From: Deltaproteobacteria bacterium
GTDB lineage: Bacteria > Desulfobacterota > Desulfobaccia > Desulfobaccales > 0-14-0-80-60-11
Length of the DNA: 64,000 nucleotides
NCBI GenBank assembly: GCA_030018495.1
Contig: JASEFS010000007.1
Coordinates: 1 to 64,000, forward strand
Direction: 5' to 3'
Shown: piece by piece, positions 11,996-52,220 of the stretch
How the letters are laid out: each line of letters starts with the position of its first letter
Position numbering within the stretch: position 1 is the first letter of the stretch
Made by a program: the position numbers and the translations under genes
The notes under the pieces: model-generated
The model's database searches: none
What the model was told of the DNA's origin: nothing
Seen by the model: the letters and a program-made list of their open reading frames with translations, nothing else

Positions 11996-12071
11996 GGGGA
12001 TGTAGCTCAGCTGGAAGAGCGCCTGCTTCGCATGCAGGAGGTCAGGGGTTCAAATCCCCTCATCTCCACCA
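11996..12071 (+). tRNA. tRNA-Ala (anticodon CGC), prophage integration target
   Basis: A 76-nt cloverleaf. GGGGATG pairs with CATCTCC (one G-U), the anticodon stem CCTGC/GCAGG holds loop TTCGCAT giving anticodon CGC (Ala), and the T-arm GGGGTTCAAATCCCC is perfect. CCA is encoded. The integrase gene begins its 3' end 15 bases beyond, pointing at the tRNA, the classical layout for integration into a tRNA 3' end. Confidence 0.96.
12038..12071 (+). other. Probable left attachment site within the tRNA-Ala 3' end
   Basis: Tyrosine integrases next to a tRNA typically recombine in its T-arm and acceptor 3' strand, regenerating the gene. Here integrase lies directly beyond. The matching right-end copy is not in the window, so the exact core cannot be defined; the coordinates mark the usual target segment. 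Confidence 0.5.
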
Positions 12072-12079
12072 ATGAATTC

Positions 12080-12105
12080 GGCCACTTAGGTGGCCTTTTC
12101 TTTTT
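12080..12105 (+). terminator. Rho-independent terminator of tRNA-Ala, overlapping the integrase 3' end
   Basis: GGCCAC (12080-12085) and GTGGCC (12090-12095) close a 4-nt loop and are followed by TTTTCTTTTT. The integrase stop codon lies in the loop, so after integration the tRNA acquires a terminator supplied by the element. Confidence 0.7.
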
Positions 12106-13132
12106 CCAAACCCGGTTCACTGAGTAGGTCACTGAGTAGGTTGCCGTTTTCCAGCCTTTTGGCTGCGTCTCTCAGGCTCTCATCGGGCTTGCGGAGATAA
12201 ACCTCGGTGGTGCGCAGGGATTTGTGCCGCAGGAAGCGGGAAAGGGTGGGAAGAGAGATTTTTTCCTTATCGGCCAGGAGGGTGGCCACGTGGTGCCTGA
12301 TGGCATGGAACCCGATGGGGCGGATGCCGGCCCGCTGGCAGACCCCCTGAATCAACCTCTTACGATCCTGAAAAGGCTTGCCGGTCTTGGGGTTGGGGAA
12401 AACCCACTCAGGGTGCTTGTCTTTTTTATTCCAGAGATCCCGCAGAACCTGGTAGAGGTCCTCGTTCATAAAGAGCCAGTCGAACTCCATGGCCCCGTCT
12501 TTTCTCTTCCGGGTCCACAGCCTGATCCGGCGCTCGGAGAAGTTGACGTCATCCCACCTGAGTCGCATCACCTCCCCCACCCGGGCCATGGTGTGGTAAA
12601 GCACCAGGAAAAATGGCCGGTGGGGGCCCGCGGCCAACAACAGACGGGTCATCTCCTCCTGGGTGAGACTGACCCGGTTCGGCTCATCCACCGGCATCTT
12701 GGTCACATGGAAGAACGGGTTTTCCTTTAATAACCCCCGCTTCCAGGCCCAGGTAAACAAGGCGCACAGGTCCTTCCGGTGAAAGTTATAGTTGTAGTTG
12801 CTTTTCCGGGTCTGGAGGTACGATTCGATCAGGTGCGGGGTGATGTGGGACAGGGGCAGATTCCCCGAAAATTCCAGGAAATGCCGGTAGACATAGGACT
12901 TGTATTTCCAGGTCTTAGCCGCGAACTTTCTTTGGGCCTGCTCCAGGTATTCCGTCGCCAGACTTAAGAAGTCCCATTCTTTGGGCGCGGGCGACGAGCT
13001 CCGGGTCAACTCGGCCCGCTTCTTTTCCATAGCGGCCCGGGCCTCCACCTTGGTCTTGGCATGGCCGGAATACCTTTTCCCCAGCACCTGCATCTGCCAA
13101 CGCCATCCCCACTTGGTTTTCCACAGCGGCAC
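12086..13132 (-). CDS. int: Tyrosine-family site-specific integrase
   Basis: The 348-aa recombinase inserts and excises the element at tRNA-Ala. An N-terminal arm-binding segment ([20 protein letters not shown]) is followed by a core-binding SAM-like domain and the catalytic domain. Catalytic residues appear as the Arg in [17 protein letters not shown] (His-x-x-Arg) and the Tyr in TTEVYLRK. Length is typical of phage integrases. Its 5' end overlaps the upstream HTH gene by about 218 bases in another frame, which is unusual (see findings). Confidence 0.93.
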
Positions 13133-13292
13133 GGACTATGTCCTCCCTGAATCTCAGGCATTTCAGACCCCCTGGATAGATGGGGCCGAAACGGTGTCTA
13201 TGTCTATAGACCGTATTCACGGATATCTTCAAGAGGTCTGCCACCTCTCGAGGGGTCAACAGGGAAAGGGAATCATTCAATCTCAAGGGCAT
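12915..13292 (-). CDS. Excisionase-type HTH protein overlapping integrase
   Basis: Start at the ATG at 13292 (CAGGAG upstream). Residues about 8-55 form a MerR/excisionase-like HTH ([19 protein letters not shown] ... [12 protein letters not shown]). The frame then continues 218 bases into the integrase gene, giving a low-complexity Gly/Arg-rich tail unlikely to be a folded domain. It may be a recombination directionality factor or an integrase N-terminal domain joined by frameshift. The domain call is good; the true C-terminus is uncertain. Confidence 0.55.
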
Positions 13293-13565
13293 TCTCCTGA
13301 TGTATGACGGGTGGAACTCATACCGGAACCGTTTGCCGGAAAATTCCTGGAAAGAATGATACCCCCATATGGCATATCTGTCAAGCTTATTTTCCGTATG
13401 TGTGTATTTCCAGAAACTTTCTGCAGGGGGACATCGGGAAAGCACACTATAGTGCAAATTAATCAAAGAAAATTGCATTTATCTTGATATCCTGTAATTA
13501 AATCACTGGCGGGATGGGATGGGCATGGAAGCCTTATTAAATGTGGCGAAATGTTCACCAACCGA
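13293..13565. promoter_or_regulatory. AT-rich intergenic region with palindromes
   Basis: No gene is supported. It contains a perfect 10-bp palindrome CACTATAGTG (13445-13454) followed by a TGCAA...TTGCA inverted repeat. These resemble operator sites and probably serve the minus-strand HTH-integrase transcription unit, which starts just downstream. Confidence 0.4.
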
Positions 13566-14771
13566 TTAATAGAAAATAGCATCCAAAAATGCGGCGCGTC
13601 GCTTCCATATCGCAGCTTGCGTTTTGTTTGTAGGCTCTTTAGAGTTAAACCAGGGGGACGAATGGATCAGTTTGATCAATTGTATGTACCCCTCTGACCC
13701 GTCAAATCGGCTTTGTGGGACGCCGAGCGTTTTGGAGAGATTCTTTCTAACGGAAACTGCTGCGACGGTGCAATAGAGGTCGGGCCGAACAATGCAGAGA
13801 AGACGGCCCCAAACCTTCATAGTCGGTCCCAAAGAGATTAACTGATCAAGATGCGACTTTAGTTTTGCCCACGGAATGGGTGGATTAAGCTTAGATATGG
13901 CATTTACCGCCTCGACTATGCTTTTCCACTGCTTATGAGTTCCATTTGCCAACAGACTTCGGAACTGACCTGATGCGGCGACATGCCCGAGCCATCCATA
14001 TTGCTTGATGCCGCCAATGATGCGTCTTTTTTCGATGTCTTGAAAATACTGCGTTGTCCACGGGATTGGTACTTCCCGAGCTGCAGCGTCAAGCACATCG
14101 TGGTAACCTTCACCCTCTCGTTCGTGCTGCTTCAACCCCGCAACAACCTTCTTGTAATAAATGTCCCAATCCGCTTGGCGAAGCCAGCTAGCGGTAGAAA
14201 TACCTTCTTCCGCCCCAGAAGGAGTATGTATTCCCTGTTCCTGTTGTTTTTGTGCGGTTGTCTTGTAGCGCTGACGGTAGCCCTTGAGCCATCTCGTTGT
14301 GGGTTGAAAGGAAAAAGTTGGAGTGTGCCATTTAGCAAGAGTTTCCTCGAGTGAATCTATATCCTTAGCCGTTTCAGTGGATGCAGTACCCTCGATCAAG
14401 CAATTGGTTTCGCAGTTTGTGTAGAAGCCGCCATAAGTGAGATTAGAACTTCCGATGAAGAGAGCGTAGTGATGTTGATCACGAAAAAGGTAGACTTTCG
14501 GGTGGAAAAGTTCAGCATCATCTCTAAAAATACGGATATCGGCATCAATATTAATGAACCACTCTATTGCATCGGGATGAGTATGGTTAAAAGCGATGCC
14601 TACAATTGCCTTGACAGACCCGCCGAAATCTTCAAGTAACTTATAGGGAAGTGTTTGATTTGGATTCCCACACCAGGCTACAGCGATGTTCAGGGTTTTA
14701 TACTCCCGGCAGCATCGGGCAAATTCAGCAGCGAAAGAGTTTGCCGAATCGAAAACGAATGATTTGCGCAT
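13566..14771 (-). CDS. Phospholipase-D-fold nuclease-like protein (probable cargo gene)
   Basis: The 401-aa protein contains HPKVYLF followed by FIGSSNLTYGGF, the HxK...GSxN pattern of the PLD superfamily, which includes nucleases such as those in some restriction and DISARM-type systems. Only one HxK motif is clear, so activity would need a dimer. The C-terminal half has no recognised domain. Base composition is clearly lower in GC than flanking phage genes and it sits between integrase and repressor, the usual place for a phage-carried accessory gene. A defence or superinfection role is plausible but unproved. Confidence 0.65.
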   Translation of the reverse strand: MRKSFVFDSANSFAAEFARCCREYKTLNIAVAWCGNPNQTLPYKLLEDFGGSVKAIVGIAFNHTHPDAIEWFINIDADIRIFRDDAELFHPKVYLFRDQHHYALFIGSSNLTYGGFYTNCETNCLIEGTASTETAKDIDSLEETLAKWHTPTFSFQPTTRWLKGYRQRYKTTAQKQQEQGIHTPSGAEEGISTASWLRQADWDIYYKKVVAGLKQHEREGEGYHDVLDAAAREVPIPWTTQYFQDIEKRRIIGGIKQYGWLGHVAASGQFRSLLANGTHKQWKSIVEAVNAISKLNPPIPWAKLKSHLDQLISLGPTMKVWGRLLCIVRPDLYCTVAAVSVRKNLSKTLGVPQSRFDGSEGYIQLIKLIHSSPWFNSKEPTNKTQAAIWKRRAAFLDAIFY

Positions 14772-14815
14772 GTTATTTTTCCTTCAATCCTTTTGCTACA
14801 GGCCTACCCCCTTCA

Positions 14816-15544
14816 CTATGGTTCCCGCACCCAACTGGTCCAGGACCAGATCACCCGGCCGATGACAATGTTCGGCATCCGGACTTTTTCCATGGCTATG
14901 GGCGGATAGTCCGGGTTGTCCGACACCAGCACCCAGTGGCCGTCGGTTTGGGAAACCCGCTTGACCGCGCAGCCCCCTTCCTCGTCCAATCTTACCGCGT
15001 AAATGGCCCTCGGTAAAACATTCGTTTCCGTGGGGTCGATGATGACGATGGAGCCCCGGCGGATGGTAGGCTCCATTGAATTAGCATCCTTGCCTAAACG
15101 CACCGCTCGCAGGTTGTGGTGTTGACGGGCCCCGATCTCCGGTTTATAGACCCAGACCAAGTCATCCACATGATCCCCGGGAATGGCCCCGGCATGTCCG
15201 GCGGCAATGCGGCCCTCCACCAGGGGTACGGCCAGATAATATTCCGGGCGCAGACCTTCAGGGACCTCGGGCTCGGTCCCCGCCAGGGCGATGATGGGCT
15301 GGACAGGCTGAAATGCCGGCGGCTCCTCCCCGGTCAGGAGCCAGTCGATGGATTTCCCGAAAATCTCTTTGATCACCATCAAGCTGTCCACCGATGGCCT
15401 GGATTCCCCTGATTTCCATCGGGTTATGGCCCGCTGCACGCCCACCATCCGGTTAAACTGCTGCTGGTCCTTGATGCCCTTCTCCTCCAGGAGCTTCTGA
15501 ACCTGCTCCAAGAAAATCTCTTTGGAAAACATCTTCTTAGCCAT
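14816..15544 (-). CDS. CI-like repressor with S24/LexA-type peptidase domain
   Basis: Start at the ATG at 15544 (GAGG nine bases upstream); a second ATG at 15553 is too close to the ribosome site. An N-terminal HTH (QQFNRMVGVQRAITRWKSGESRP) is followed by a C-terminal self-cleaving domain. A likely Ala-Gly cleavage site lies in GRIAAGHAG, the catalytic Ser in DANSMEPTI, and the Lys in CAVKRV. It should hold the lysogenic state and be inactivated by the RecA-mediated SOS response. It is divergent from the Cro-like gene. Confidence 0.9.
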   Translation of the reverse strand: MAKKMFSKEIFLEQVQKLLEEKGIKDQQQFNRMVGVQRAITRWKSGESRPSVDSLMVIKEIFGKSIDWLLTGEEPPAFQPVQPIIALAGTEPEVPEGLRPEYYLAVPLVEGRIAAGHAGAIPGDHVDDLVWVYKPEIGARQHHNLRAVRLGKDANSMEPTIRRGSIVIIDPTETNVLPRAIYAVRLDEEGGCAVKRVSQTDGHWVLVSDNPDYPPIAMEKVRMPNIVIGRVIWSWTSWVREP

Positions 15545-15649
15545 TATACCCATCCTCGGCTAATTTTTCTGCTTGACAATAGCCGCATGCGTTGATTATC
15601 TTTCCCCTGGATTTAATTACCACATACGGAAAGGATTATCCAGGAAAAA
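15545..15649. promoter_or_regulatory. Divergent repressor/Cro operator-promoter region
   Basis: The gap between the two regulators holds a rightward promoter with TTGACA at 15573-15578 and TATCTT at 15597-15602. GATTATC occurs twice (about 15594-15600 and 15634-15640) and a GCATGC palindrome lies at 15585-15590; these are operator candidates. Confidence 0.5.
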
Positions 15650-20355: not shown

Positions 20356-20751
20356 ATGATTTTCACCAGCAACTTCAAAATCGCCGGACACTTTCCCCAA
20401 GCCGTGGCCATCTCCCGGGGGTTGCCCCGGGGTTGGCGGGGAAGGGTTTACCGGCCCCTGGCTCCCTCCTGGGCGCTGGTGAAAATCTCCGATCCGCAAC
20501 AGTTCATCAGGCTTTACCGGACCCAAGTCCTGGACCGACTAAATGCCGGGCAGGTGCTGAGCGACCTGGGGGGTGATGACTTTGTGCTCCTCTGTTGGGA
20601 GCCGCCCGGAGAGTTTTGTCACCGCCAGGTGGTGGCAGCCTGGCTGAAGGCCCAAGTGGGGGTGGTTGTGGAAGAGTTCAATCTCAGGCTCCGCCGGCAC
20701 AAGGACTGGCTTCGGCTGATGGAGGTTTCATGTCCTTCATCGGTTCCATAA
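20356..20751 (+). CDS. DUF488-like protein (131 aa)
   Basis: FVLLCWEPPGEFCHRQVVAAWL matches the C-terminal signature of DUF488 (LLC.E....CHR..V...L). A second family member lies at 33739-34098 in the same element and shares the F-TS-F opening and LLCWE..G.FCHR core. The biochemical function of the family is unknown. Its end overlaps the Mom-like gene by 22 bases. Confidence 0.65.
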   Translation: MIFTSNFKIAGHFPQAVAISRGLPRGWRGRVYRPLAPSWALVKISDPQQFIRLYRTQVLDRLNAGQVLSDLGGDDFVLLCWEPPGEFCHRQVVAAWLKAQVGVVVEEFNLRLRRHKDWLRLMEVSCPSSVP

Positions 20752-22798: not shown

Positions 22799-23165
22799 AG
22801 TCCTTTTGCCCTACCGGGCGGCGGATAATTTCCAGGGAGCAGCCCTGGTGGCCCAGGACAAACATCTCCTGCGCCTGGCGGCAACCTGGTCCCTGGTGCC
22901 GCGAACCCTTCCCGATCCTCCCGGCCCTGGCAAGGAAGTGGACCTGGAAGAGGTCTGGCGGCAGACTAGTATCAACTTTCAGGGGTGGGTGGCGTTGAGC
23001 CAATTGCCTCACTTGGTGGTGATGGAGGGGTTCAAAGCACTCAAAGGAACACAGGTAATCCTGCCCGACGGCACCTTGAACCACGCGGTGGAGACCCTTC
23101 TTCAGAAAGAGGCGGCGGGGCAGTTCATGGCCAAGTTGAATATCAAGCCAGGAGATTTGAAATGA
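22785..23165 (+). CDS. Hypothetical phage protein upstream of terminase nuclease
   Basis: Start at the ATG at 22785, eight bases after GAGGAGG. The 126-aa protein has no recognised motif; it carries LLPYRAADNFQGAAL near the N-terminus and a basic, helical C-terminus. It overlaps the terminase nuclease gene by four bases (ATGA), so it is translated with it. Confidence 0.55.
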   Translation: MRWLEVLLPYRAADNFQGAALVAQDKHLLRLAATWSLVPRTLPDPPGPGKEVDLEEVWRQTSINFQGWVALSQLPHLVVMEGFKALKGTQVILPDGTLNHAVETLLQKEAAGQFMAKLNIKPGDLK

Positions 23166-23671
23166 GCCGCAACCTGGCCGTGTTCGACTATCGCCCCGAG
23201 GGTGAGCTTTACCTGGGCATCGACTTCGGGTACAAGAACCCCTTTGCCTGCCTGTGGATTCAGCCCATCGACCAGGGCGAGCGGGTGCTGGTGTTGGATG
23301 AATACTACCAGCGCTACCGAACCACCGCGGAGAACGGCCGGGCGCTCCTGGGAATCCACCTGGCCTCCGGCTATGGCCGCCTCACCGATACCTACGCCGA
23401 TCCTTCGGACCCCGAGAAACGGGCGGTGCTGTCGGAGATCCTGGGGATAGAGGTTAAGGCGCCCCGCCGCAGCGTGGAGGTGGGCCAGGAGCTGGTGCGG
23501 CGTTGGCTGAAGGTGAGGCCCGACGGCCTGCCTGGCCTCCTGATCCATCACCGCTGCAAGGAATTGATCTCAGAGCTCAAGGGCTACATGGTCCACGAAC
23601 CCGGCAGGGGCCGGCACCATGCCCTGGACGCTTTGCGGTATTTCTTTGCCGGCTGGCCCGGGGCAGACTGA
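23162..23671 (+). CDS. Terminase large subunit, nuclease domain as separate protein
   Basis: A 169-aa stand-alone RNase-H-fold nuclease domain of TerL. Catalytic acidic residues appear in LGIDFGYKNPFACLW, TYADPSDPEKRA and GRHHALDALRY, the normal order and spacing. The N-terminus (after MSRNLAVFDYRP) begins exactly where the ATPase-domain protein at 24548-25465 stops, so the two proteins together make one complete TerL. The ATGA overlap with the upstream gene shows it is translated from its own start. It should cut phage concatemers during packaging. Confidence 0.85.
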   Translation: MSRNLAVFDYRPEGELYLGIDFGYKNPFACLWIQPIDQGERVLVLDEYYQRYRTTAENGRALLGIHLASGYGRLTDTYADPSDPEKRAVLSEILGIEVKAPRRSVEVGQELVRRWLKVRPDGLPGLLIHHRCKELISELKGYMVHEPGRGRHHALDALRYFFAGWPGAD

Positions 23672-23700
23672 AAAAAATTTTGCAGGAAAAGGGAAAGGAC

Positions 23701-24180
23701 TTGGACAAGAAACAGTCCAAACGGGAGCAGAAAATCGCTCGTGCCATGGAGGTTCAGGGCCACTACATCGGCGGCATGCGGCCCGGAGATATTGCCGATC
23801 TCATGGGCGTTTCCGAGCGAACGGTGTGGAACGACCTGAAGCTGGCCAGGCAGCTTAACCGGGAAGAAGTTCAGGCCTTCGATCACGAGGAACTCCTGGG
23901 GAAACGACTGAAAGTTTTCCGACTGATCCGGACCAATGCCCTGCGGGATTACCAGCTTTGCAAGGAAGGCGGCAACGCCAAGGCTGCCTTTCTGAACATT
24001 GCGCTCCGGGCGGAAGAGAAAATCACCCAGTTGCTCCAGGACGTGGGGGCCATCGTCAAGGTGCCGGAGCGGGTGTCCATTGAAGAGGGGAACCCCTTCA
24101 GCGACACGGAATTCCGTCAGAAATACATCGCTCTGATGAAAGAGGCCAAGGCGAAGGGAATAAAAATCTACGGATTGTGA
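23701..24180 (+). CDS. Terminase small subunit-like HTH protein
   Basis: The 159-aa product carries an HTH (MRPGDIADLMGVSERTVWNDLKLA, about residues 26-50) followed by a helical oligomerisation region, the usual TerS design. Start is uncertain: TTG at 23701 is chosen (AAAGGG eight bases upstream); TTG at 23680 and ATG at 23746 are alternatives. It lies between the TerL nuclease and ATPase genes and should recognise the packaging start site. Confidence 0.6.
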   Translation: MDKKQSKREQKIARAMEVQGHYIGGMRPGDIADLMGVSERTVWNDLKLARQLNREEVQAFDHEELLGKRLKVFRLIRTNALRDYQLCKEGGNAKAAFLNIALRAEEKITQLLQDVGAIVKVPERVSIEEGNPFSDTEFRQKYIALMKEAKAKGIKIYGL

Positions 24181-24547
24181 GAAAAAACAGCTAATTACAA
24201 ATATGGAAAATAATTTTTTACAAAAAGGTCAACTCCCCACTGACCCCCTGGAAAAGGGCCGGGCTTCCCACCACCCCCCTTATTCCCCCACCTGTTTCCC
24301 ACCGTTTTCAGACCTGGGGGCGAGCAAGGGTAACCTTTTTATATTTCAATATAATTCCGGGGACGCAAACGGGTGTAACGAAGCGAACAACGACTCCTTT
24401 ACCATTTATATGCACTACTGTTTTGCCGGTATTTACCCCTTAAAAGTGGCGTAGGCGGGATACCCCTGGCGGGGCTATTTCGGGGCTTTGGCATACCGGG
24501 TGCTACCGTACCCTTGTGCTTGCCTTGTTTCGTCTCCCGGGACTTTG
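24181..24547. other. Intergenic region before the terminase ATPase gene
   Basis: About 370 bp without a convincing gene. The first part, right after the TerS-like stop, carries a GGATTGTGAGA motif (24172-24182) that recurs twice near 25590 and 25610 beyond the ATPase gene. A C-rich stretch (24235-24310) follows, then AT-rich DNA. Possible packaging-site or RNA region; nothing firm. Confidence 0.35.
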
Positions 24548-25465
24548 ATGGTTGCATCTGTGCTCACCTCCAATAGCCACCTTACCGGTCGGGAGATCCT
24601 CCAGTGGGTGGAGCACCATCGGGCCGTGGGTTTTGCCGGTCCAGAGGAACTCCTGGACTTCATCGACATCTTCTGGGACATCCGGGTGCCCCGGGTTAAG
24701 GTCTGTCCGGAGCACACCCCGCCAGCGGAATACGTGGTGGCCTCCTTTTTTGAAGAGGTCCTGGACTGCGTCTGCTGGGCCAACCGCAGCGGTGGCAAGA
24801 CTTTGAACGGCGCCCTGGTGACTTGGCTGGATTCGGTGTTCAAGGGCAACTGCGAGACCAAGATTTTGGGCGGCTCGGGGGAGCAGAGCCTCCGCATGTA
24901 CGAGCATATCAAGAGTTTTGTCACTCCACCCTTCCAGCACTTGGTGGAGGGGGAGGCCCTGCGCACCCGGACCCACCTGGTGAACGGCTCCAACATCCAG
25001 ATATTAACAGCCTCCACCAAGTCCGTCCGTGGCCCCCATCCTCAGAAGCTGAAGCTGGACGAGGTGGACGAGTTTGAGGACCGGATATATGAGGCCGCAC
25101 TCCTGATCCCCAAATCGGCCAAGGGCATCCGGGCCTCAGTGCAGATTTACTCCACCATGCACAAGGCCTACGGCCTGATGAACCGGGTGATCACCGAGGC
25201 GGCGGAGAGCGGTTACCGGGTCTTCAAGTGGTGCGTTTTTGACGTCATGGAAAAATGCGTGGGCCGGGACTGCGAGACCTGCGAACTCTGGGAGGACTGT
25301 GAAGGGAGAGCCAAGGAAGCTGATGGCTTTTACCCGGTGGAGGACGCCATTTCCGCAAAACGCAAGGTGTCCAGAGAGACCTGGGAATCGGAGATGCTGT
25401 GCCGCATGCCCAGCCAGGAGGGACTGATCTATAAGGAATTCGACTTGTCGATACACGTTATTTAA
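24548..25465 (+). CDS. Terminase large subunit, ATPase domain as separate protein
   Basis: The 305-aa product has the packaging ATPase motifs: Walker A-like CWANRSGGKT near residue 80, Walker B KLKLDEVDEF near residue 165, and the coupling segment SVQIYSTMHKAYG. A Cys cluster (CVGRDCETCELWEDC) follows. It ends at SIHVI-stop, the point where other TerL proteins enter the nuclease domain; that domain is encoded upstream at 23162-23671. Start is uncertain: ATG at 24548 or TTG at 24488, neither with a strong ribosome site. Confidence 0.85.
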   Translation: MVASVLTSNSHLTGREILQWVEHHRAVGFAGPEELLDFIDIFWDIRVPRVKVCPEHTPPAEYVVASFFEEVLDCVCWANRSGGKTLNGALVTWLDSVFKGNCETKILGGSGEQSLRMYEHIKSFVTPPFQHLVEGEALRTRTHLVNGSNIQILTASTKSVRGPHPQKLKLDEVDEFEDRIYEAALLIPKSAKGIRASVQIYSTMHKAYGLMNRVITEAAESGYRVFKWCVFDVMEKCVGRDCETCELWEDCEGRAKEADGFYPVEDAISAKRKVSRETWESEMLCRMPSQEGLIYKEFDLSIHVI

Positions 25466-25740
25466 ACTAAAGCGATAACGTTACTTTCCTCATAACCAAA
25501 TAATAATAACAAGACCAATAACAATTGGGAGCGGTGAAGTTTGTCCTAAAATAAAAGTAACGCTTATAACAATGTTCAACAATACTTAGGATTGTGAGAT
25601 TAAACTTACGATTGTGAGAAAATACATGTTGCTATAGGTGCGTAATATTATAGGAATAAACTAAAACACGATAACAAATAATGAATAACTTAATACTACA
25701 TAACAGTAAGGGTGGTGATGCTTATTTGCTAATCAAATAA
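25466..25740. repeat. AT-rich non-coding segment with direct repeats
   Basis: Strikingly AT-rich against its surroundings. AACTAAA followed by CGATAAC occurs twice (about 25464-25480 and 25661-25676), and (G)GATTGTGAGA occurs twice (about 25590 and 25610), matching a copy at the TerS-like gene end. It may be a packaging or replication start site, or the variable 5' part of the structured RNA that follows. Confidence 0.5.
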
Positions 25741-26394
25741 CAGCAGGGCCGGGTGGGAGGCCAAACGGGAATGCGGCTCCCACAGGTTACATGTTAACCG
25801 AAAAAACCCAGGTAACGGAAGCAGACCTGGCCCAATCAGAGAGGAAATAGCAATCCTGGCAGCCTTACGAGGTGGGCGAAATTGCAAGTTCCCCCGATCA
25901 CCTGAATGCGGGTGACGGCGAAGGGGTCCCGGCGAACTAGATCGAATCTGGGTAGGCGGGTAGGCGGCGCCACCGAAAGCGACCAGCAACTGAGCGGCTT
26001 GATGATGAATCTAAACGCTCACAGTTTTTTGGATTTACTGAGAAGAATCCTGGTGTTCAGGCACCTAAAACCCTGAGTCGTAAAACCGAGCCGGAGACGA
26101 GGCGAAAATCGGGAACGCCGGTTAGTGAGTACCTGAGGCGCAGGCCGGCCAGCGGGTGGTGCGAGCGACGGGACCGCTGGAAGGAAGGCGAAAGCGAGAG
26201 GCGCAAGCGATGATTAGCAGCCGGGTTGGGAAGCGATGAAGCCGTTGACCCTGGATGGCTTGTGGGTGGGCCGATAACGAACCCTGGGCGGGTTGCCCTC
26301 AAGGACCCAGATCAAGGCGTTGAAGGAGGGGGCGGGAGCCAAGGTTCCTGTCTCCCATTGAGCGCCTTGCTCGAATTCCAAACGGGAGGACAGG
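25741..26394 (+). ncRNA. Candidate large structured phage RNA, class unassigned
   Basis: About 650 nt without coding signal but full of stable hairpins: GTGGGAG/CTCCCAC (25753-25759 with 25777-25783), GGTTA/TAACC (25785-25799), CCAGGT/ACCTGG (25808-25813 with 25825-25830), CCAGCGG/CCGCTGG (26149-26155 with 26174-26180), AAGCC/GGCTT (26239-26261), and small stems capped by GAAA (26190-26193) and GCAA (26203-26206) tetraloops. Size, GNRA loops and phage setting recall GOLLD or ROOL RNAs, but I cannot confirm membership. A 3'-terminal stem covers the ribosome site of the next gene. Confidence 0.6.
26347..26394 (+). promoter_or_regulatory. Ribosome-site-sequestering stem
   Basis: CCTGTCTCCC (26347-26356) pairs with GGGAGGACAGG (26384-26394) through ten base pairs and one bulged G. 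The GGGAGGA ribosome site of the 26395 gene lies inside the stem, so its translation should depend on opening this structure. Confidence 0.6.
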
Positions 26395-26577
26395 ATGATG
26401 ACAAAGACGGATTTGAAGAGGCAACCGGTGAGCAGCCTCAAGCGGATTGCCAACTACATGGGCATTATAGTTCCCCGGGATTTCTCCCGGGACGACATCT
26501 TCGAAACCATCTGCGACCGGCTGGGCAGCCCGGAAGAAAACCGGGTCGGCTGGTGGCTCCTGGACCAATGGAAGTAG
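26395..26577 (+). CDS. Small SAP/Rho-N-like protein (60 aa)
   Basis: Two adjacent ATGs (26395, 26398) follow GGGAGGA. The segment VSSLKRIANYMGIIVPRDFSRDDIFETI has the helix-turn-helix pattern of SAP/Rho-N-terminal domains that bind nucleic acid. It is the first gene after the structured RNA and its ribosome site is paired in the 3' stem of that RNA, so binding of its own leader is conceivable. Confidence 0.55.
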   Translation: MMTKTDLKRQPVSSLKRIANYMGIIVPRDFSRDDIFETICDRLGSPEENRVGWWLLDQWK

Positions 26578-27005: not shown

Positions 27006-27043
27006 CCCGCCTCGGACCCATGCCTCGAATCCTACCCCCACGG

Positions 27044-27076
27044 GGGCCCGGGCTACCGGGCCCTCGCCCTTTTTTT
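27044..27076 (+). terminator. Rho-independent terminator
   Basis: GGGCCCGG (27044-27051) pairs with CCGGGCCC (27056-27063) around a GCTA loop; a run of seven T follows six bases later. Confidence 0.65.
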
Positions 27077-33511: not shown

Positions 33512-33772
33512 ATGAATAAAAGGGCTACCATCTACTTCAACACTGGCGAGGCCAACGGCCGGCGCACCACCTTCAACGGCGGGGTGGAGATCTTGAGATA
33601 TGGCGAGGTCACCGACCTCTACATCCGGGGGCCCAAGGGCGGCCTCAGGCACATCGTGAGCCTGCCCTGGCATGAAGCCGTGCACCTGGGCGAAGAGTTG
33701 CTGCGCCTGCATGAAGATAAATCCAAAACGGAGGGTGAATGTTCACCAGCAGCTTCTGGCGGTTCTACCTGA
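33512..33772 (+). CDS. Small hypothetical protein (86 aa)
   Basis: GAGGAGG precedes the ATG, ten bases after dnaN. The beta-rich product (ATIYFNTGEANGRRTTFNGG ... VTDLYIRGPKGG) shows no catalytic motif and overlaps the DUF488-like gene by 34 bases. Function unknown. Confidence 0.55.
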   Translation: MNKRATIYFNTGEANGRRTTFNGGVEILRYGEVTDLYIRGPKGGLRHIVSLPWHEAVHLGEELLRLHEDKSKTEGECSPAASGGST

Positions 33773-34098
33773 AGGATTACTCCCGGCTGGTCTCCATCGC
33801 TTTGAAGACCCCGGAGTGGTTCCGGGGACGAAGGTACCCGGCCCTGGCGCCCCGGGAGGACATGCTGCACCTGGGCGAAGCTGACTACCGGCGGGAGTAC
33901 CGGAGAATCCTGGACCTGCTCGATCCCCGGCGGGTTTATGAGGAGCTGGGGAGCGAGTCAATCTTGTTGTGCTGGGAGGGTGCAGGACAGTTCTGCCACC
34001 GGCGCCTGGTGGCGGAGTGGCTGGAGGAGCACCTGGGGGTGGTCATCCCGGAGTTGCCCCACCACTACAACCCCGACCAGCTAAGTCTCTTTGACTAA
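33739..34098 (+). CDS. DUF488-like protein, second copy (119 aa)
   Basis: ILLCWEGAGQFCHRRLVAEWLEEHLGVVIPE carries the DUF488 signature. It is a paralogue of the 20356-20751 product: both open F-TS-F and share the RRY/RVYP-LAP segment before the CHR motif. A C-terminal DQLSLFD tail resembles a sliding-clamp-binding peptide (Q-x-x-L-F), and dnaN is the gene but one upstream; clamp binding is inference. Confidence 0.65.
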   Translation: MFTSSFWRFYLKDYSRLVSIALKTPEWFRGRRYPALAPREDMLHLGEADYRREYRRILDLLDPRRVYEELGSESILLCWEGAGQFCHRRLVAEWLEEHLGVVIPELPHHYNPDQLSLFD

Positions 34099-39815: not shown

Positions 39816-39856
39816 CGGTATGATGGCAAAGGGAAGATTGTAAGGGGATGGAGACT

Positions 39857-42800
39857 ATGAAATATAGAGACCTGATCCGGTTCGAGCCTATTGAGTCCGT
39901 AGTTCAGTTGCGGGACGCCGATGAAGCGGCTGCCGCCCGACAGCTTGTTGAGACCTATGTCATCTCAGAAGAGATGGCCGAGAAGCTGATAAGCCTTGTC
40001 ATCCCACAACTTCAGTTTGACCAGCCCATGGACAATAAAGGACTTCTGGTCGTTGGGAATTATGGAACCGGGAAATCCCACCTCATGTCGGTGATCTCCG
40101 CTTTAGCCGAAAACGGGGAGCTATCCTCCTATCTGAATGACCGAAATGTGGCCGCTGCAGCAGGTAAAATCGGTGGCTGCTTTAAAGTGGTGCGCACGGA
40201 ATTGGAAGGAATAAAGATGTCCCTCCGGGATTTTATTTGTGGGCATCTTGAGGAAGTTTTCCGTGATTGGGGAGTGGAATTTCAATTTCCCCCGCACGAA
40301 CAAACGCTCAGCCATAAGACCTTGTTCGAAGAGATGATGACAGCATTTCATGAGCAGTTTCCTGATCATGGCCTTCTTTTTGTTGTGGATGAGCTTCTTG
40401 ACTATCTCAACAGCCGTAAGGACCAAGAACTTATTCTGGATTTAAACTTCCTCAGAGTAATCGGCGAGATATGCAAAGATTTGCGTTTCCGGTTCATCGC
40501 CGGTGTCCAAGAAGCCATTTTTGATAGTCCCCGTTTCGCCTTTGTGGCCGACAGCATCCGCCGGGTGAAGGACCGATTTGAGCAAATTCTCATCGCCCGG
40601 AGGGACGTCAAGTTCGTAGTAGCCGAGCGACTACTCAAGAAGACCGGTGAGCAGCAGACTAAAATCCGTGACCACCTCACTCCCTTTGCCAAATTCTATG
40701 GACGTATGAATGAACGTATGGATGAGTTTGTCCGCCTCTTCCCTGTTCATCCAGACTACATTGATGTCTTCGAGCAGATAAGAATTGCCGAAAAACGCGA
40801 AGTCCTTAGAACTCTTTCTCTCGCCATGAAGAAACTGCTTGATAAAGATGTCCCGGATGACCGCCCCGGGCTGATTGCTTACGACAGCTACTGGGCGAAC
40901 TTGCGTGAAAACCCATCTTTTCGTGCTGTTCCAGACATCAGGGCGGTGATCGACTGCAGCCAAGTACTGGAGTCCCGCCTCCAGCAGGCCTTTACCAGGC
41001 CGGCATATAAGCCTATGGCGCTCACAATAATCCATGCCTTATCTGTCCACCGGTTAACCACCGGCGATATATACGCCACCTTGGGTGCGACGGCCGAGGA
41101 ACTGCGTGACGGATTATGCCTGTATCAGCCTGGTATCGAGGACTTGGGCGGCAACCCGGCAGATGATCTGCTTTCCCAGGTGGAGGTTGTTCTTCGAGAA
41201 ATTCATAAAACGGTGAGCGGCCAGTTCATTTCGTCCAACCCGGACAACCGACAATACTATCTCGACCTGAAGAAGACCGATGACTTTGATGCACTCATTG
41301 AAAAGCGTGCTGAGACCCTCGACGACTCGCAGCTTGACCGCTACTACTACGAGGCCCTGAAGCGGGTAATGGAGTGCATCGACCAGACCTATGTCACCGG
41401 CTACAAGATCTGGCAGCACGAACTCGAATGGTTGGAGCGGAAGGCGGCGCGCCAAGGCTACCTGTTTTTCGGGGCGCCAAATGAAAGGTCCACCGCAGTG
41501 CCACCACGCGACTTCTACCTTTACTTTATCCAGCCCTTCGACGCGCCTCACTTCAAGGATGAAAAAAAGCCTGATGAGCTTTTCTTACGCCTGACGAATA
41601 CTGATGAAGCCTTCCGCAGCGCTCTGCGGAACTATGCTGCGGCCCTCGACCTATCTTCCACTGCCTCTGGGCATGCCAAATCTACTTACGAGTCCAAGGC
41701 CTCGAGCTTCCTGCGGGATCTAGTGCTATGGCTACAGAAAAGTATGACCACGGCTTTTGAGGTTACCTATCAGGGGAGGAACAAGTCCCTAACCGAGTGG
41801 GCCAAGGGTAAGTCGATCCGAGAGTTGTCTGGCATTGCCTCCTACGAACGCATCAATTTCCGCGATTTGGTGAACACCATAGCCGGCATCTGCCTTGGGG
41901 CCCATTTCCAGGACCAAGCTCCCGAGTACCCTTTCTTTTCGGTGCTCATTACCGGAGCCAACAGAGCCCAAGCAGCCCAGGACGCCCTGCGGGCCATCGC
42001 TGGGCAGAACCGGACAAAGCAGGCAACCGCAGTGTTAGATGCCCTTGAACTCCTTGACGGAGACCGGCTTGATCCGTACCGGTCGAAGTACGCCAAACAC
42101 ATTCTTGACTTCGTGAACAAGAAGGGACACGGCCAGGTGGTCAACCGCTCCGAGTTGATTCAAGAAGTCCTCGGAGTGGAATACCTTGCCCCGCAGACCA
42201 TGCGACTTGAGCCTGAATGGGCGGTGGTCGTCCTAGCCGCGCTGGTTTACTCCGGCGAGATAGTGCTGGCTATTCCGGGTAAAAAGTTTGATGCCACTGG
42301 TCTTACTCAACTGGCTGGAACAGGAATCGATGAACTGACTCAGTTCAAACACATCGAACGGCCTAAGGACTGGAACTTGCCGGCACTCAAGGCTTTATTC
42401 GAGTTGCTCGGGCTGACGCCGGGCCTGGCCCAATTGGTCACCCAAGGGAAGGAAGAGCCGGTTCAGGAGCTCCAAAAGGCCATAGTAGCGGTGGTGGAAA
42501 GGCTTGTGCTTGCCCAGCAGAACCTACTAACCGGGGTTTTTTTCTGGGGTCGCAATTTGCTGACCGCAGAAGAAATTCAGGGGTTACGTTCCCAGATGGA
42601 TGAGACCAAAAACTTTTTGGAGTTGCTTCAGGCCTACAACTCTCCGGGTAAACTAAAGAATTTCCGCTACGATGTTCAGGAAGTGACCAGTCATCGGGCT
42701 GGGCTCCAGGCTTTAGAAGAGATTGAGTCCTTGCAAGAACTGGTTACTGACCTCGGAGCCACAGCTTCCTATCTCTCTACAGCTGAGGCGGTCTTGCCCA

Positions 42801-43585
42801 TCGGGCATGAATGGATCGATCAAGTGAAGAGAGTGCGAGATGAGGTTCTCGGCCAAATCAGCGACTCTGCCAAGCGAAGCGTAGCAAATTTCCGGCAACA
42901 GACCCAACGTCAGCTTATCGATCTTAAGAAGGCCTATTTACAGTTTTATCTTAGCTTACATACCAAGGCTCGTCTTGGTGTAAACGAAGACAAATTCAAG
43001 GCTCAGCTCATGGTGGATGAGCGTTTGAGGGTTTTGCAGAAGCTTTCCACCATCGACCTTATGCCTCGCCAGCACCTGACCGATTTTCAGAACCGTCTGG
43101 CAGGCCTGAAAAGCTGCTTTGCCCTTACTGAGCCAGAACTTGGCGCCTCACCTGTTTGCCCGCACTGCAGTTATAAACCCGCTGCAGAAGCACTAACGGC
43201 CCCGGCTGGCAAAGTTCTAAACAGCCTGGATGCTGAATTGGACAAGTTGATAGACAACTGGACCCAGACGCTGCTCGCCAATCTGGAGGACCCCACCACT
43301 AAAAGCAATTTGGACCTTCTCAAGCCTGAACCCCGAAAGCTGGTGGATGACTTCATTAAGAGGAGATCATTGCCTGATAAACTGGACCAAGAATTCATCC
43401 AGGCCTTGCAGGAAGTTCTCTCCGGGCTTCTCAAGGTGTCGGTCAAGACCACCGATCTCCGGGCCGCACTGCTCACAGGTGGCTCCCCGGTGACGCCAAC
43501 GGAGATGAGAAAGCGGTTTGAAGAATACTTGGATCAACTCACCAAGGGTAAGGAACCTGAAAAAGTACGGATTGTTTTGGAATGA
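39857..43585 (+). CDS. brxC: BREX protein BrxC/PglY-type large ATPase
   Basis: The 1242-aa protein has Walker [15 protein letters not shown] near residue 60 and a Walker B region [12 protein letters not shown] near residue 175; the rest is long helical repeat with a zinc-knuckle CPHCSYKP near residue 1110. This matches the DUF6079-type BrxC of BREX loci at full length. The ATG at 39857 has GGAG five bases upstream, better than the ATG at 39848. Overlaps the HD gene by four bases. Needed for BREX methylation and phage exclusion in studied systems. Confidence 0.88.
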
Positions 43586-44919
43586 GAGTGATGGGTAAGA
43601 CTTACGAAATTCGAGACCCGATACACGGTTTTATCGAGCTGAATGAATGGGAGCGGGATATCGTTAATCATCCCGTATTTCAGAGGCTACGCCGGATTCG
43701 TCAGCTTGGCCTCACTGACATGGTATATCCAGGCGCCATGCATACCCGTTTCGAACATTCACTCGGTGTCATGCACGTTGCCACAAAAATGTTCGACCAG
43801 ATCGTAAAGCGCCGGCAAGATTTTTTAGAAACAGAGCTTTCTTTCACTGCAGGTGGCCTTGAGAGAGATCGTGTCCTTGTTCGGCTATCATGCCTATTGC
43901 ACGATGCAGGCCATGCTCCATTTTCTCATGCGGCTGAAGGATTGATGGATAAGGATCCGACAACGAACAAGTCTTATAAACATGAAAACTATTCAGCGGC
44001 AGCTGTGGCGTTCTTGATGCAGGATGTGATTGAGAATCACCCGTTAAATCAGAACTACAAAATAACAGCCCAAGAGATTGCTGATTTCCTCAACGGCCGG
44101 GTGGCTCTTGGCCGAGTCCTTCTTTGGCGGAGCCTCGTTTCAAGTCAATTAGACGCCGACCGTGCCGACTACCTGCTCCGTGATTCACATCACATCGGAG
44201 TAGCTTATGGGAGATACGACCTTAACCGCCTATTGGTAACTTTAACCATTGCTTTAGATCCTGAAACCGAATCCCCTGTTTTAGCGATCGAGGATGGAGG
44301 TGTACATGCGGCTGAGGCTCTGATTCTTGCAAGGTACTTCATGTTTACTCAGGTATATTTCCAACATACGAGACGTGCATACGATCACCATTCCGTCCAG
44401 GCTATTAAACATCTCTTGATGGAGGCGCAAAGAGGCGGCGATCTCGCCAACAAAGAAGCCTTTCCTTCGCCAACCTCACGAGAAAATATGGAGCAGTATT
44501 TGAAATGGGATGACTGGCGCGTTCTTGGGATGATTCATCGTGGCCTCGCCAGTGAACATGGTGATATACTATTAAATCGTCAACACCACCGCCGGGTTTT
44601 CGAAACCCCTGAAGTCCCGAATACTTCTGACCTTGAGTTCGCAGAACAAGTTTTCGCAGGATTAGATGACCTTGTAAGTTTCGTGGATAAAGCTGAAAGC
44701 TCTTGGTACAAGTTCGAGTCGGCTGATATCCCGATTTTACTCAGACCAGGCCAGGGTGACGAGGAGCTCACCAAGCTTTCCAGACTGTCCACGGTTGTCA
44801 GTGGTCTGAAAGCCGTCAGCAGAACTCGTGTCTATGTCGCCATTGAAAACAAAGAGGAGGCACTTGAGAGAGTTCGTGTTCTCCGCCAGCAAAAAGAGCA
44901 AAAGGAGGCTCAAGCATGA
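43582..44919 (+). CDS. HD-domain (SAMHD1/YwfO-like) phosphohydrolase
   Basis: The 445-aa protein begins [20 protein letters not shown] and carries [32 protein letters not shown] and [14 protein letters not shown], the H...HD...D metal-binding residues of HD phosphohydrolases related to dNTPases. Such enzymes can remove dNTPs, a recognised antiviral tactic. Overlaps brxC and the next gene by four bases each, so it is co-translated with BREX although not a BREX-3 core gene. The HD-YwgA pairing also exists in Bacillus (ywfO-ywgA). Confidence 0.85.
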
Positions 44920-45491
44920 AAGTCAGTCTGGACATTCCGTGGCAAAGGTATGCGCTCATTGCTGAGCTTGCCCAGCGTTGCGAAGGAAAATGCCCTCAAT
45001 TCGGCAAAACTGTGCTGCAAAAAATGGTGTATCTGCTGCAAGAGGTTTTTCATATTGATTGTGGCTATGATTTTGATATCTACGCCTATGGTCCTTTCAC
45101 CCCTCAGCTCTTGCAAGACCTGGATCTTGTGGAGCACACTGGCGCCGTAAAAATTCATCCTGTTGCGTCCATGACGGGCGGATATGAGATCAGTCCCGGT
45201 GGACAGGCGGCTGCACTTATTCAAAAGGGATCAGACTTTCTCAACAAGGGGGAGGTGAAAAAGGCCATTGAAACCCTGGTTGATGAATTTGGACGCTTTT
45301 GGGCCAAGGACTTGGAGCTTCGCTCAACGATTATCTTCGTACAACGAGATTCTCAAAAGCAGGGAAAACTTCTTTCAGCCGATGACATTGTAGAAATTGT
45401 TAAACAAATAAAGCCCAAATTTACCAATGCGGAAATCCGTGACGCCGTCGAGGAGTTGAAGTCGAAAAAATATTTGGAGCCGGTTGCCTAA
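44916..45491 (+). CDS. YwgA-like protein
   Basis: The 191-aa protein has KTVLQKMVYLLQEVFHIDCGYDF-IYAYGPFTPQLLQDL, the signature of YwgA-family (SocA/Panacea-related) proteins. It overlaps the HD phosphohydrolase gene (ATGA); the pair probably acts as a unit in which YwgA controls or adapts the enzyme. Function of YwgA itself is not established. Confidence 0.65.
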   Translation: MKVSLDIPWQRYALIAELAQRCEGKCPQFGKTVLQKMVYLLQEVFHIDCGYDFDIYAYGPFTPQLLQDLDLVEHTGAVKIHPVASMTGGYEISPGGQAAALIQKGSDFLNKGEVKKAIETLVDEFGRFWAKDLELRSTIIFVQRDSQKQGKLLSADDIVEIVKQIKPKFTNAEIRDAVEELKSKKYLEPVA

Positions 45492-45532
45492 AATATATAC
45501 ACCGGGATCTTTGCTGGGGAAAGGAGATAAAA

Positions 45533-45781
45533 ATGAGCAAAGGTAGAGATCGTACAGTTTCTCGCCGCCCTGATGGCACTTGGGAAAACAAGCGAAATGA
45601 TGCCAAGAAAGCATCCAGCCTGCATCAGACCCAGAAAGAAGCAGAACAGGCGGCCAGAGAGATGCTGCGGAAACAAGGTGGAGGAGAGCTGACGACAAAA
45701 GGCCGCGACGGCAAGATAAGGAGCAAGGATACCATAGCGCCCGGCAATGATCCCAATCCGCCCAAGGATACGGAGCATTAG
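45533..45781 (+). CDS. DUF2188 protein (82 aa)
   Basis: RTVSRRPDGTWENKRNDAKKASSLHQTQKEAEQAAREML is the DUF2188 motif, a small basic two-strand-plus-helix fold of unknown role. AAAGGAG precedes the ATG. It lies between the HD/YwgA pair and pglX. Confidence 0.75.
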   Translation: MSKGRDRTVSRRPDGTWENKRNDAKKASSLHQTQKEAEQAAREMLRKQGGGELTTKGRDGKIRSKDTIAPGNDPNPPKDTEH

Positions 45782-45818
45782 CCGAATCGGGGTGAGTCCC
45801 AGAGTCAAGGCGGATGAC

Positions 45819-50731: not shown

Positions 50732-50734
50732 AAA

Positions 50735-52042
50735 ATGTCAAGAGAAAGCCATATCCTCAGCCCGGACACCCAGGCGGTTCTATTGCTCTGTGCCAACTTT
50801 GAGGCGAAATCCGATTCAGGGGTAAAACCGCTGACGTTAGCACAATACAACCGTCTGGCAAGTTGGCTCCGTAATCAACATCTTCGCCCTGGTGATTTGC
50901 TCCACCAAGAAGGAGTGGAAAAATTACGCCAGTCAATGGATCAACTTAAAGAGGCGGAAGAGGCTTTAAAGCTTTTGGCGAGGGGCGTGGCCATGGCTTT
51001 GGCGGTGGAGAAATGGACCAATCAAGGAATCTGGGTCCTGAGCCGCAGTGATATGGAATACCCGAGACGTTTTAAGGATCGCTTGAAACAAAATTCTCCG
51101 CCTATACTTTTTGGTGCTGGTATCAAGAATCTGTTAGCAAGAGGAGGGCTGGCCGTAATCGGATCACGGCACGCCGATGAAAAGGCCTTAGAATTCACCC
51201 GTAAGATTGGCCAGCGCTGCGCCCTAGAGAATATTCAGGTCATTTCAGGCGGCGCTAAAGGTGTGGATCAAGAGGCGATGCTGGCGGCTTTGGCCCAGGG
51301 GGGTGAGGTTATTGGCATTCTTTCGGATAACCTAGGGAGGGCAACGGTCTCGGGCAAGTACCGCCAAGCAATCCGTGATGGCCAATTAGTGCTTCTCTCT
51401 GCCTGTGCTCCCGAGACCCGCTTTCAGGTAGGTAATGCCATGGCCCGGAATAAGCTAATTTATGCCTTATCAGATTGGGCCCTGGTGGTCAGCACTGAGA
51501 CTGAAAAAGGAGGCACCTGGACGGGCGCCTTGGAGAATCTTAAGTATAACTGGGTCCCACTATTGGTGCGAGATGGTGCAGATGTTTCGTCCAGTAACAA
51601 GAGGCTCATTAAAGAAGGTGCCAATCCCTTAAATCAGGGGAAGGTCCTTCAACATATAGGAGGATTGAAAGACCTCCTTCAGCAGGCATCAATCCAGAAA
51701 GAATCGGCGGTTCCCGAAGAATCAGGATTAGGCGCACATGCTGGAAGGGCAGTAGATGCATCACAAAGACACCACCTCCTCAATGAGTTTGGGAAAGGAG
51801 CCTTACATCAAGTCGATGCCGATTATTTCTGGGATCACCAGGTCTGGCCAGCAATCTCTAATATACTGCGATCCCAAAGCAGGCTGACTGTCAGTCAACT
51901 TGCGAAGGACTTGGGGATTGAAAAGTCACAAGCCAAGGCGTGGCTCAAACGAGCCTCGGAGGAACAAAAGGTTAAGAAATTAACAAGACCGGAACGATAC
52001 GTAGCTCCTGAATTTGGGCAGAGGTCATTACTCGATGAGTAA
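50735..52042 (+). CDS. DprA/SLOG-like protein with C-terminal winged helix
   Basis: The 435-aa protein has a DprA-type Rossmann core: LARGGLAVIGSRHA, VISGGAKGVDQEAMLAAL, and VGNAMARNKLIYALSDWALVV with GGTWTGALE. A C-terminal winged-helix (SRLTVSQLAKDLGIEKSQAKAWL) follows. DprA belongs to the SLOG fold group, proposed to bind nucleotide-type ligands or single-stranded DNA. It is genetically coupled to the RecQ-PRTase gene, suggesting one two-protein system. Confidence 0.85.
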   Translation: MSRESHILSPDTQAVLLLCANFEAKSDSGVKPLTLAQYNRLASWLRNQHLRPGDLLHQEGVEKLRQSMDQLKEAEEALKLLARGVAMALAVEKWTNQGIWVLSRSDMEYPRRFKDRLKQNSPPILFGAGIKNLLARGGLAVIGSRHADEKALEFTRKIGQRCALENIQVISGGAKGVDQEAMLAALAQGGEVIGILSDNLGRATVSGKYRQAIRDGQLVLLSACAPETRFQVGNAMARNKLIYALSDWALVVSTETEKGGTWTGALENLKYNWVPLLVRDGADVSSSNKRLIKEGANPLNQGKVLQHIGGLKDLLQQASIQKESAVPEESGLGAHAGRAVDASQRHHLLNEFGKGALHQVDADYFWDHQVWPAISNILRSQSRLTVSQLAKDLGIEKSQAKAWLKRASEEQKVKKLTRPERYVAPEFGQRSLLDE

Positions 52043-52094
52043 TGACTTATCCTGTCCGGGCCGATAAAAGGAGGGCAAACCTCCTCCTACGTTC

Positions 52095-52193
52095 ATCGAG
52101 ATGGCCTGATAGACGATGCAAATCTTCCTCCAGGAAGCCCCCGATCTCCAAATGTGTTACGACAGGGCACTCACAAGATGCGGCGAAGTTTAA
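52095..52193 (+). pseudogene. Relic of a pglX 3' end
   Basis: In one frame this stretch reads IEMA-stop-stop-TMQIFLQEAPDLQMCYDRALTRCGEV, closely echoing the PglX C-terminus IIEVARKIPETILHEDPKLLMYYDQALTRM. DNA similarity continues upstream (ATCGA-TGGCC). The interrupting stops show it is not expressed. It lies after the RecQ-DprA pair, just before the DUF262 gene. Confidence 0.7.
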
Positions 52194-52220
52194 CCCCCAT
52201 TAGCCAAGGAGTGTTAATTC

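Follow-up and report, generated by a model that had tools for sequence, protein, structure and literature searches.

What is carried by the 929 bases, devoid of any credible gene, that separate a phage terminase ATPase gene (stop codon at 25465) from a 60-aa ORF (start codon at 26395) in the 64,000-nucleotide stretch of deltaproteobacterial DNA analysed here (the window)? A prediction made from sequence alone proposed a large structured non-coding RNA occupying 25466-26394 next to the terminase gene. It pointed to more than 900 bp without a credible gene, an abrupt change from an AT-rich 5' part and many perfect stems from 25741 onwards, and it likened the scale and setting to those of GOLLD and ROOL while seeing no sequence diagnostic of any class. 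A covariance-model search and an analysis of covariation in homologues were named as checks, and a decayed protein gene as a finding that would refute it. All parts of the element and its flanking signals described below lie on the plus strand.

Coding status and boundaries

Region 25466-26394 of the window encodes no protein. The ORFs of at least 60 aa within it are found only on the minus strand or in overlapping frames and are broken or absent in relatives, and the indels separating the RNA region of the window from that of L004 (88% identical) measure 2, 1, 2, 1, 3 and 4 nt. A decayed protein gene was rejected: the minus-strand ORFs are not maintained, and most indels separating close relatives have lengths not divisible by three. 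The claimed absence of a credible gene therefore held, on the ORF check in the window and relatives and on the indel pattern, and the refuting alternative is not supported. The abrupt change from an AT-rich 5' part held as well, with G+C content of ~31% at 25450-25749 and 55-66% from 25750 onward, the step lying near 25,740.

The plus strand of 25735-26394 folds more stably than 20 shuffled sequences (z -1.83; none of the 20 equally stable), whereas the minus strand is no more stable than its shuffles (z 0.08). Folding energy alone is therefore modest evidence. Many of the stems spotted by eye in 25466-26394 are not among the conserved ones. The decisive evidence for a structured RNA is covariation in relatives.

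The whole element is placed at 25660-26380, with its 5' end inferred from a putative promoter and its 3' end unmapped; it is conserved in ~36 loci and has no match in Rfam. Conserved structure spans ~25,705 to 26,369, and the RNA measures about 600-720 nt across members. Transcription likely starts near 25,660, although this is inferred from the putative promoter without transcript data, and 25466-25628 is likely to be DNA with regulatory repeats rather than part of the RNA body. The extent first proposed, 25466-26394, is thus corrected at both ends: the AT-rich 5' part looks like promoter or regulatory DNA, and 26395 belongs to the next start codon.

Relatives and distribution

The neighbouring terminase ATPase protein was used as a query to collect 31 loci, 20 of which contain the RNA region according to a nucleotide profile. 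A spaced pattern built from the most conserved part of the RNA recovered more copies in the IMG/VR collection and matches 4 of 22 genomes of the bacterium's family, where the reversed control pattern matches none; reversed-pattern controls likewise gave zero matches in 29 genomes. Five loci (L035, L041, L044, L046 and L048) were rejected as chance matches of the pattern scan, having no RNA by profile. Of 395 genomes in the phylum, 7 match a covariance model of the central domain (R1); six of these belong to the window's family and G171 to a different one. Nine more loci were added through a search with the downstream AAA+ protein. The total stands at ~36 loci with the RNA, ~28 of them clearly distinct in sequence, in one phage group in relatives of this bacterium. 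The profile matches fall on many contigs of phages as well as in prophages.

The terminase ATPase gene adjoins the RNA in most members, but L071 carries the RNA with no terminase gene beside it and in L009 the terminase lies 2.1 kb away, and we regard this neighbour as incidental to the RNA. Conversely, no R1 match was found in the closely related phages L007, L025, L026 and L030, which have the same ATPase gene followed by at least 2 kb of sequence; the element is therefore dispensable for this phage group.

Searches against known RNA families

When the whole window was compared with all 4,227 Rfam 15 families (cmscan, gathering thresholds), only two tRNAs were matched, both outside the RNA region. 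At E<=10 the RNA region gave one chance match only (19 bits against a cut-off of 80), and eight related loci gave nothing near threshold at E<=1. The GOLLD and ROOL covariance models are unmatched both in the window (gathering thresholds and E<=10) and in the eight related loci (E<=1), and no model of group I or group II introns matches the window or those loci. The window also has no Rfam match to phi29-type packaging RNA or to HEARO; the ORFs downstream of the RNA encode small proteins of 49-153 aa or an AAA+ ATPase, with no adjacent IscB/IsrB-type nuclease gene. No INPHARED phage matches the RNA at the DNA level, and these phages yielded a single, distant relative of TerL; no description of the RNA family was found in the literature searched.

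Conserved structure

Compensatory changes support at least eight helices in the RNA. Since 5' domains and linkers differ between members, RNAalifold recovers the structure of whole-length alignments only partly. Two alignments cover the central domain. The first (A3) comprises 16 sequences and a structure made of P_c, P_d with an inner hairpin, the pseudoknot PK1 and P_f. In it, 86.7% of cells are paired and 18 of 28 pairs have changed on both sides. Doubly changed paired cells number 50, compared with 17.5 in shuffles (equalled in 0 of 500) and no more than 8 when partners are slid. The other (A6) consists mostly of new sequences and gives 34 doubly changed cells against 13.9 (again 0 of 500). 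The two are not fully independent, however: both include the window, and the A6 rows for L017 and for L022-like and L014-like sequences have related rows in A3.

Upstream of P_c, comparative sequences support P_a (25928-25933/25955-25960) and, nested within it, P_b (25937-25942/25946-25951, loop CGA), together covering 25928-25960. The P_a pair 25930/25958 is C-G in 12 sequences and U-A in 7, and the P_b variants read from the sequences are CUAGAU/AUCUGG, CAGAU/AUCUG, ACCUGG/CCAGGU and ACCCGG/CCGGGU. Helix P_c (25966-25984), closed by the loop ACCGAAA, has changed on both sides at 4 of its 5 pairs in A3 and again at 4 of 5 in A6. It is followed by P_d (25991-25995/26017-26021) and its inner hairpin (25999-26003/26009-26013), which span 25991-26021 and are supported in both alignments; in A3 these are helices 2 and 3, with 91% and 75% of cells paired, respectively, and two-sided changes in both.

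PK1 (26022-26050) is an H-type pseudoknot in which stem 1 (26022-26025/26037-26040) is followed by a U-rich loop and stem 2 (26031-26035/26046-26050). All four stem-1 pairs have changed on both sides in A3, and stem 2 is 97.5% paired there. Variants of stem 1 are CAGU/ACUG, CGUG/CACG, CGGA/UCCG and AAGG/CCUU, and those of stem 2 are GGAUU/AAUCC, GAGUU/AACUC and GGGUU/AACCC. A strict pseudoknot descriptor is satisfied by 22 of 24 RNAs, with 28 pseudoknots in total compared with 0-3 in ten shuffled sets. In nine RNAs found later the same descriptor finds four pseudoknots (0-2 in shuffles), the remaining ones having related but less U-rich loops as read from the sequence; L081, also found later and outside the alignments, shows a new stem-2 variant, GACUUU/GAAGUC. 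One RNA, that of L071, lacks the pseudoknot. The adjoining hairpin P_f (26052-26065) has 82.8% of its cells paired in A3 but only 40.6% in A6, because the A6 alignment slips there. Long-range pairings suggested by a helix scan, such as that of the P_f loop with 26221-26226, were too inconsistent to be claimed.

Several of the same RNAs contain secondary, weaker R1 matches, the best in L072 (E=7e-5); in the window the corresponding match at 26198-26301 reaches only E=0.19. Together with sequence reading these matches place a second pseudoknot and hairpin module, PK2, at 26256-26298, present in some members only (UGGC-UUGU-GGGU..GCCG..ACCC in the window and GGCCU-UUU-GGGUU..AGGCC..AACCC in L021). 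With the secondary matches read as pseudoknot plus hairpin, the RNA appears to be built of repeatable modules. In L005 (3740-3930), L077 (930-1130) and L084 (4580-4780), P_d is replaced and two tandem pseudoknots are present, for example GGUUUUUCUUCUUUGACCCACAGAAGAA.

Towards the 3' end, comparative sequences support helix P_g (26149-26180), after which comes the conserved GGAAGGAAGG; variants of the helix include CCAGCGG/CCGCUGG, CCGGCCC/GGGCCGG and CCUGGAG/CUCCAGG. The terminal hairpin P_t (26313-26369) consists of an outer stem (26313-26324/26358-26369) and an inner stem (26328-26336/26347-26354) and is supported by covariation, with 91.1% of cells paired and 37 doubly changed cells against 12.4 in shuffles (0 of 500). 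Its arm UUGAGCGCC has two potential partners, one within the terminal stem and the other GCUCAA immediately after it, and this alternative is a possible switch. A reading of TTGAGC-N5-GCTCAA as a phage-wide DNA operator was rejected: the window holds one good copy only, and a scan of the collection returned two family members and unrelated chance matches.

The central claim of the original prediction, a large structured non-coding RNA, thus held, with ~36 loci and strong covariation that includes a pseudoknot. Two of the proposed checks were run; the covariance-model search against Rfam 15 matched no family, and compensatory changes were found in homologues. Its restraint over class also held, as GOLLD, ROOL, HEARO and introns are unmatched even at relaxed thresholds. 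The position next to the terminase gene is true in the window but is not a defining property (L071, L009). Conserved non-coding sequence with a covariation-supported multi-domain structure is what defines a large structured phage non-coding RNA in general, and this criterion is met. We consider it very likely that this is a genuine structured RNA family, one of large multi-domain prophage RNAs that is undescribed and absent from Rfam.

Upstream repeats and promoter-like sequences

Two direct repeats of GATTGTGAGA, 20 bp apart (copies at 25590 and 25610; 25590-25619), immediately precede the putative promoter. Both copies are retained in L002, L004, L011 and L018-20, and a single copy is present in L071. 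These repeats are inferred to be probable activator sites. A third copy occurs at 24173, at the end of the small-terminase gene and before an AT-rich stretch upstream of the ATPase half, and is possibly another site for the same regulator.

An alignment of five leaders points to 25629-25656, where the sequence reads as a putative sigma-70-like promoter (-35 TTGCTA at 25629-25634, -10 TAGGAA at 25651-25656). It is weaker in the window than in relatives such as L018 and L071 (TTTACA...TAAGAT), with spacing of 16-17 nt, and a consensus promoter scan requiring at least 9 of 12 matches did not report it in the window. Of the 33 leaders examined, 19 carry a different motif, TTAGGCAY-N5-KTGCA, placed ~50-140 nt ahead of the point where the profile match begins. 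Its invariant GG-N10-GC corresponds to the -24/-12 pattern of sigma-54 promoters, and the motif is inferred to be sigma-54-like. Such sequences occur elsewhere in these loci at only 0.018 per 345 nt, although the 19 leaders are homologous and count as one observation, not nineteen. L023 instead carries TTGACA-N17-TACCTT upstream. Finding promoter-like sequences of two or more unrelated types ahead of a single RNA suggests that the RNA has its own start, and that the transcription signal has been exchanged while the RNA stayed. In most members the promoter-like sequences are followed by a purine-rich AAAGGAGG-like motif, after which no conserved ORF starts.

Downstream genes and prophage context

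In the window the RNA is followed by a Shine-Dalgarno sequence, GGAGG (26385-26389), and the first accessory ORF (26395-26577, 60 aa), which together span 26385-26577; the start codon lies 29 nt past the end of the GCC arm. The distance from P_t to the next start codon, with a Shine-Dalgarno sequence, is 27-53 nt in nearly every locus examined, L088 having no recognised start. In L017 and L023, further genes are also preceded by a duplicate of P_t and the Shine-Dalgarno sequence. The stretch from the RNA to the first ORF holds no recognised terminator, the first in the window being an intrinsic terminator at 27041-27066 (11-pair stem and T run) that may end a transcript of the RNA and accessory genes. 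This layout of RNA and then gene fits an RNA gene heading an accessory operon and a leader alike.

The gene that follows the RNA varies by phage and may be the 60-aa ORF, another small ORF or the AAA+ ATPase gene itself (L084). The RNAs of L084 and L085 are 99% identical over their last 300 nt and have different next genes: the AAA+ gene comes directly after the RNA in L084, and in L085 a 67-aa ORF with its own ribosome-binding site intervenes. This argues against an RNA dedicated to one gene.

The wider locus shows further features. The large terminase is split and permuted, with the nuclease half at 23162-23671, a small-terminase-like gene at 23680-24180 and the ATPase half at 24488-25465; this order is kept across the phage group, and in the relatives L028, L031 and L032 from Planctomycetota MAGs the halves are adjacent and in the usual order. 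Two paralogous small phage genes, with 38-44% identity in cross-matches, lie some way off on either side of the RNA region (20356-20751 and 33739-34098), and copies of them also lie just upstream of the AAA+ gene in some relatives. A tyrosine integrase gene (12086-13132, minus strand) sits directly beside tRNA-Ala (11996-12071) and is followed by genes for a PLD-like protein and an S24 repressor-like protein, so that 11996-15553 is likely the left end of the prophage. A BREX-type defence island (BrxC, PglXI, BrxHI, PglZ, BrxA) occupies 39848-59571 between the replication and head genes, with PsyrT/PsyrA-like genes nested in it at 48647-52042, and portal, protease and capsid genes follow from 59807.

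Possible roles of the RNA

We lean, by a modest margin, towards an RNA that acts on its own in trans, in the manner of GOLLD and ROOL, while heading an accessory operon; its expression and assembly are inferred, and host takeover, protection of a cargo and ribosome binding are no more than candidate purposes. This preference rests on the RNA being kept while neighbouring genes and promoters change, and on its size and modular architecture. In such a model the RNA would be transcribed from its own promoter near its 5' end and would fold into a compact particle, with the pseudoknot probably braced by triple contacts of the U-rich loop. It would then work either through self-assembly of the kind known from GOLLD and ROOL or in complex with a protein of phage or host origin. 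A single transcript would cover the RNA, the small genes after it and the AAA+ ATPase gene, and the terminal hairpin would mark or protect the RNA 3' end, leaving the ribosome-binding site of the next gene free. A bolder version, which in our judgement is slightly more likely to prove wrong than right, is a new class of large phage RNA made of repeated triplex-type pseudoknot modules. During the phage cycle it would act in trans as a particle, either of RNA alone or of RNA and protein, and it would be kept as an accessory 'RNA gene' heading an operon that exchanges its protein cargo freely. Against stand-alone action stand the lack of transcript data, the leader-like placement of start codon and ribosome-binding site without a terminator, the copying of P_t with its Shine-Dalgarno sequence elsewhere (L017, L023) and the weak promoter of the window.

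The main rival is a giant cis-acting leader (5' UTR) controlling translation or transcription of the downstream accessory or AAA+ gene, which we rate well below an even chance. In its favour are the start codon placed 27-53 nt past P_t in nearly every locus examined with no terminator between, the duplication of P_t and Shine-Dalgarno sequence before other genes in L017 and L023, and the alternative pairing of the UUGAGCGCC arm as a possible switch. However, there is no conservation of the gene that comes next (the 60-aa ORF, a different small ORF or, in L084, the AAA+ gene), and ~650 nt with repeated pseudoknots would be unusually large for a leader. Nor does the inner arm favour the ribosome-binding region of its own locus: the mean duplex energy is -10.5 kcal/mol compared with -10.7 kcal/mol for non-cognate regions, and 1240 of 2000 permutations are equally strong. 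The idea that the P_t arm sequesters the Shine-Dalgarno sequence in the manner of a riboswitch was rejected; the duplex reaches -19.5 kcal/mol in the window, but there is no cognate preference across 19 sequences.

Other explanations fare worse than either the leader or the preferred stand-alone reading. The split TerL, together with an RNA that begins just past the ATPase half, could point to a self-splicing intron or its remnant in the terminase gene, which would explain the separate ATPase and nuclease genes. This can be set aside almost entirely, as no group I or group II model matches, the nuclease half lies upstream of the RNA and not downstream, the ATPase half has the same stop in L006, L007, L025 and L026, all without the RNA, and the RNA is not adjacent to the terminase in L009 and L071. 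That the terminase ATPase gene is adjacent in most members could also indicate a packaging RNA, or a pac or cos element used by the terminase; we find this very improbable, given that the adjacency is lost in L071 and L009, that the RNA is missing from relatives with the same terminase (L007, L025, L026, L030), and that neither phi29 pRNA nor any Rfam family resembles the RNA. A regulatory or anti-defence RNA acting in trans (as a sponge, decoy or guide) and directed at factors of the host or of competing phages, its structure mainly presenting binding sites, would suit the accessory position, the presence or absence between phages, the modular domain swapping and the adjoining accessory genes. 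It is nevertheless unlikely, because no conserved unstructured seed and no repeat or guide layout was seen and conservation falls mostly in the structured core.

Comparison with known large RNAs

Phages are known to contain only a few kinds of very large structured RNA. Recent cryo-EM studies of two of them, GOLLD and ROOL, did not settle how common nanocages are among large natural RNAs and what roles these RNAs have. With its defined core, its covariation, its RNA-less relatives and its natural variants, which differ in the number of pseudoknot modules (one or two) and in swapped 5' domains, a new family makes those questions directly testable. It also shows that RNA classes absent from Rfam exist in uncultured bacteria and their prophages.

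At the level of the module, a U-rich loop 1, an A-rich loop 3 and a stem 2 ending in U-A pairs form the layout of triplex-braced pseudoknots such as those of the SAM-II riboswitch and telomerase RNA. PK1 has all three features. However, it is one repeatable module of a large RNA, with no ligand or template function indicated and no sequence match. At the level of the whole molecule, OLE RNA is known for its position in an operon, and the window RNA resembles it as a large structured RNA of ~600 nt within an operon, but OLE is chromosomal in Firmicutes and has known protein partners, whereas the window RNA has no Rfam match.

The phage RNAs are closer. ROOL (Rumen-Originating, Ornate, Large) is an RNA of phages and prophages, ~650 nt long, with a complex multi-domain fold that includes pseudoknots and with unknown function (PMC12286853). 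The window RNA shares its phage or prophage location, its size of ~650 nt and its multi-domain pseudoknotted fold, but is not matched by the Rfam model; moreover, ROOL is often near tRNA islands, whereas the only tRNA genes of the window, tRNA-Pro (3366) and tRNA-Ala (11996), are more than 13 kb from the RNA. In GOLLD, also a large phage RNA, the 3' region is the better conserved and the 5' region the more variable (PMC12286853), and the window family, likewise from environmental phages, shows the same contrast. GOLLD is often longer than 800 nt and near tRNAs, and it differs from the window RNA, which lacks an Rfam match, in architecture, that of the window RNA being one of repeated modules that each combine a U-rich-loop pseudoknot with a hairpin.
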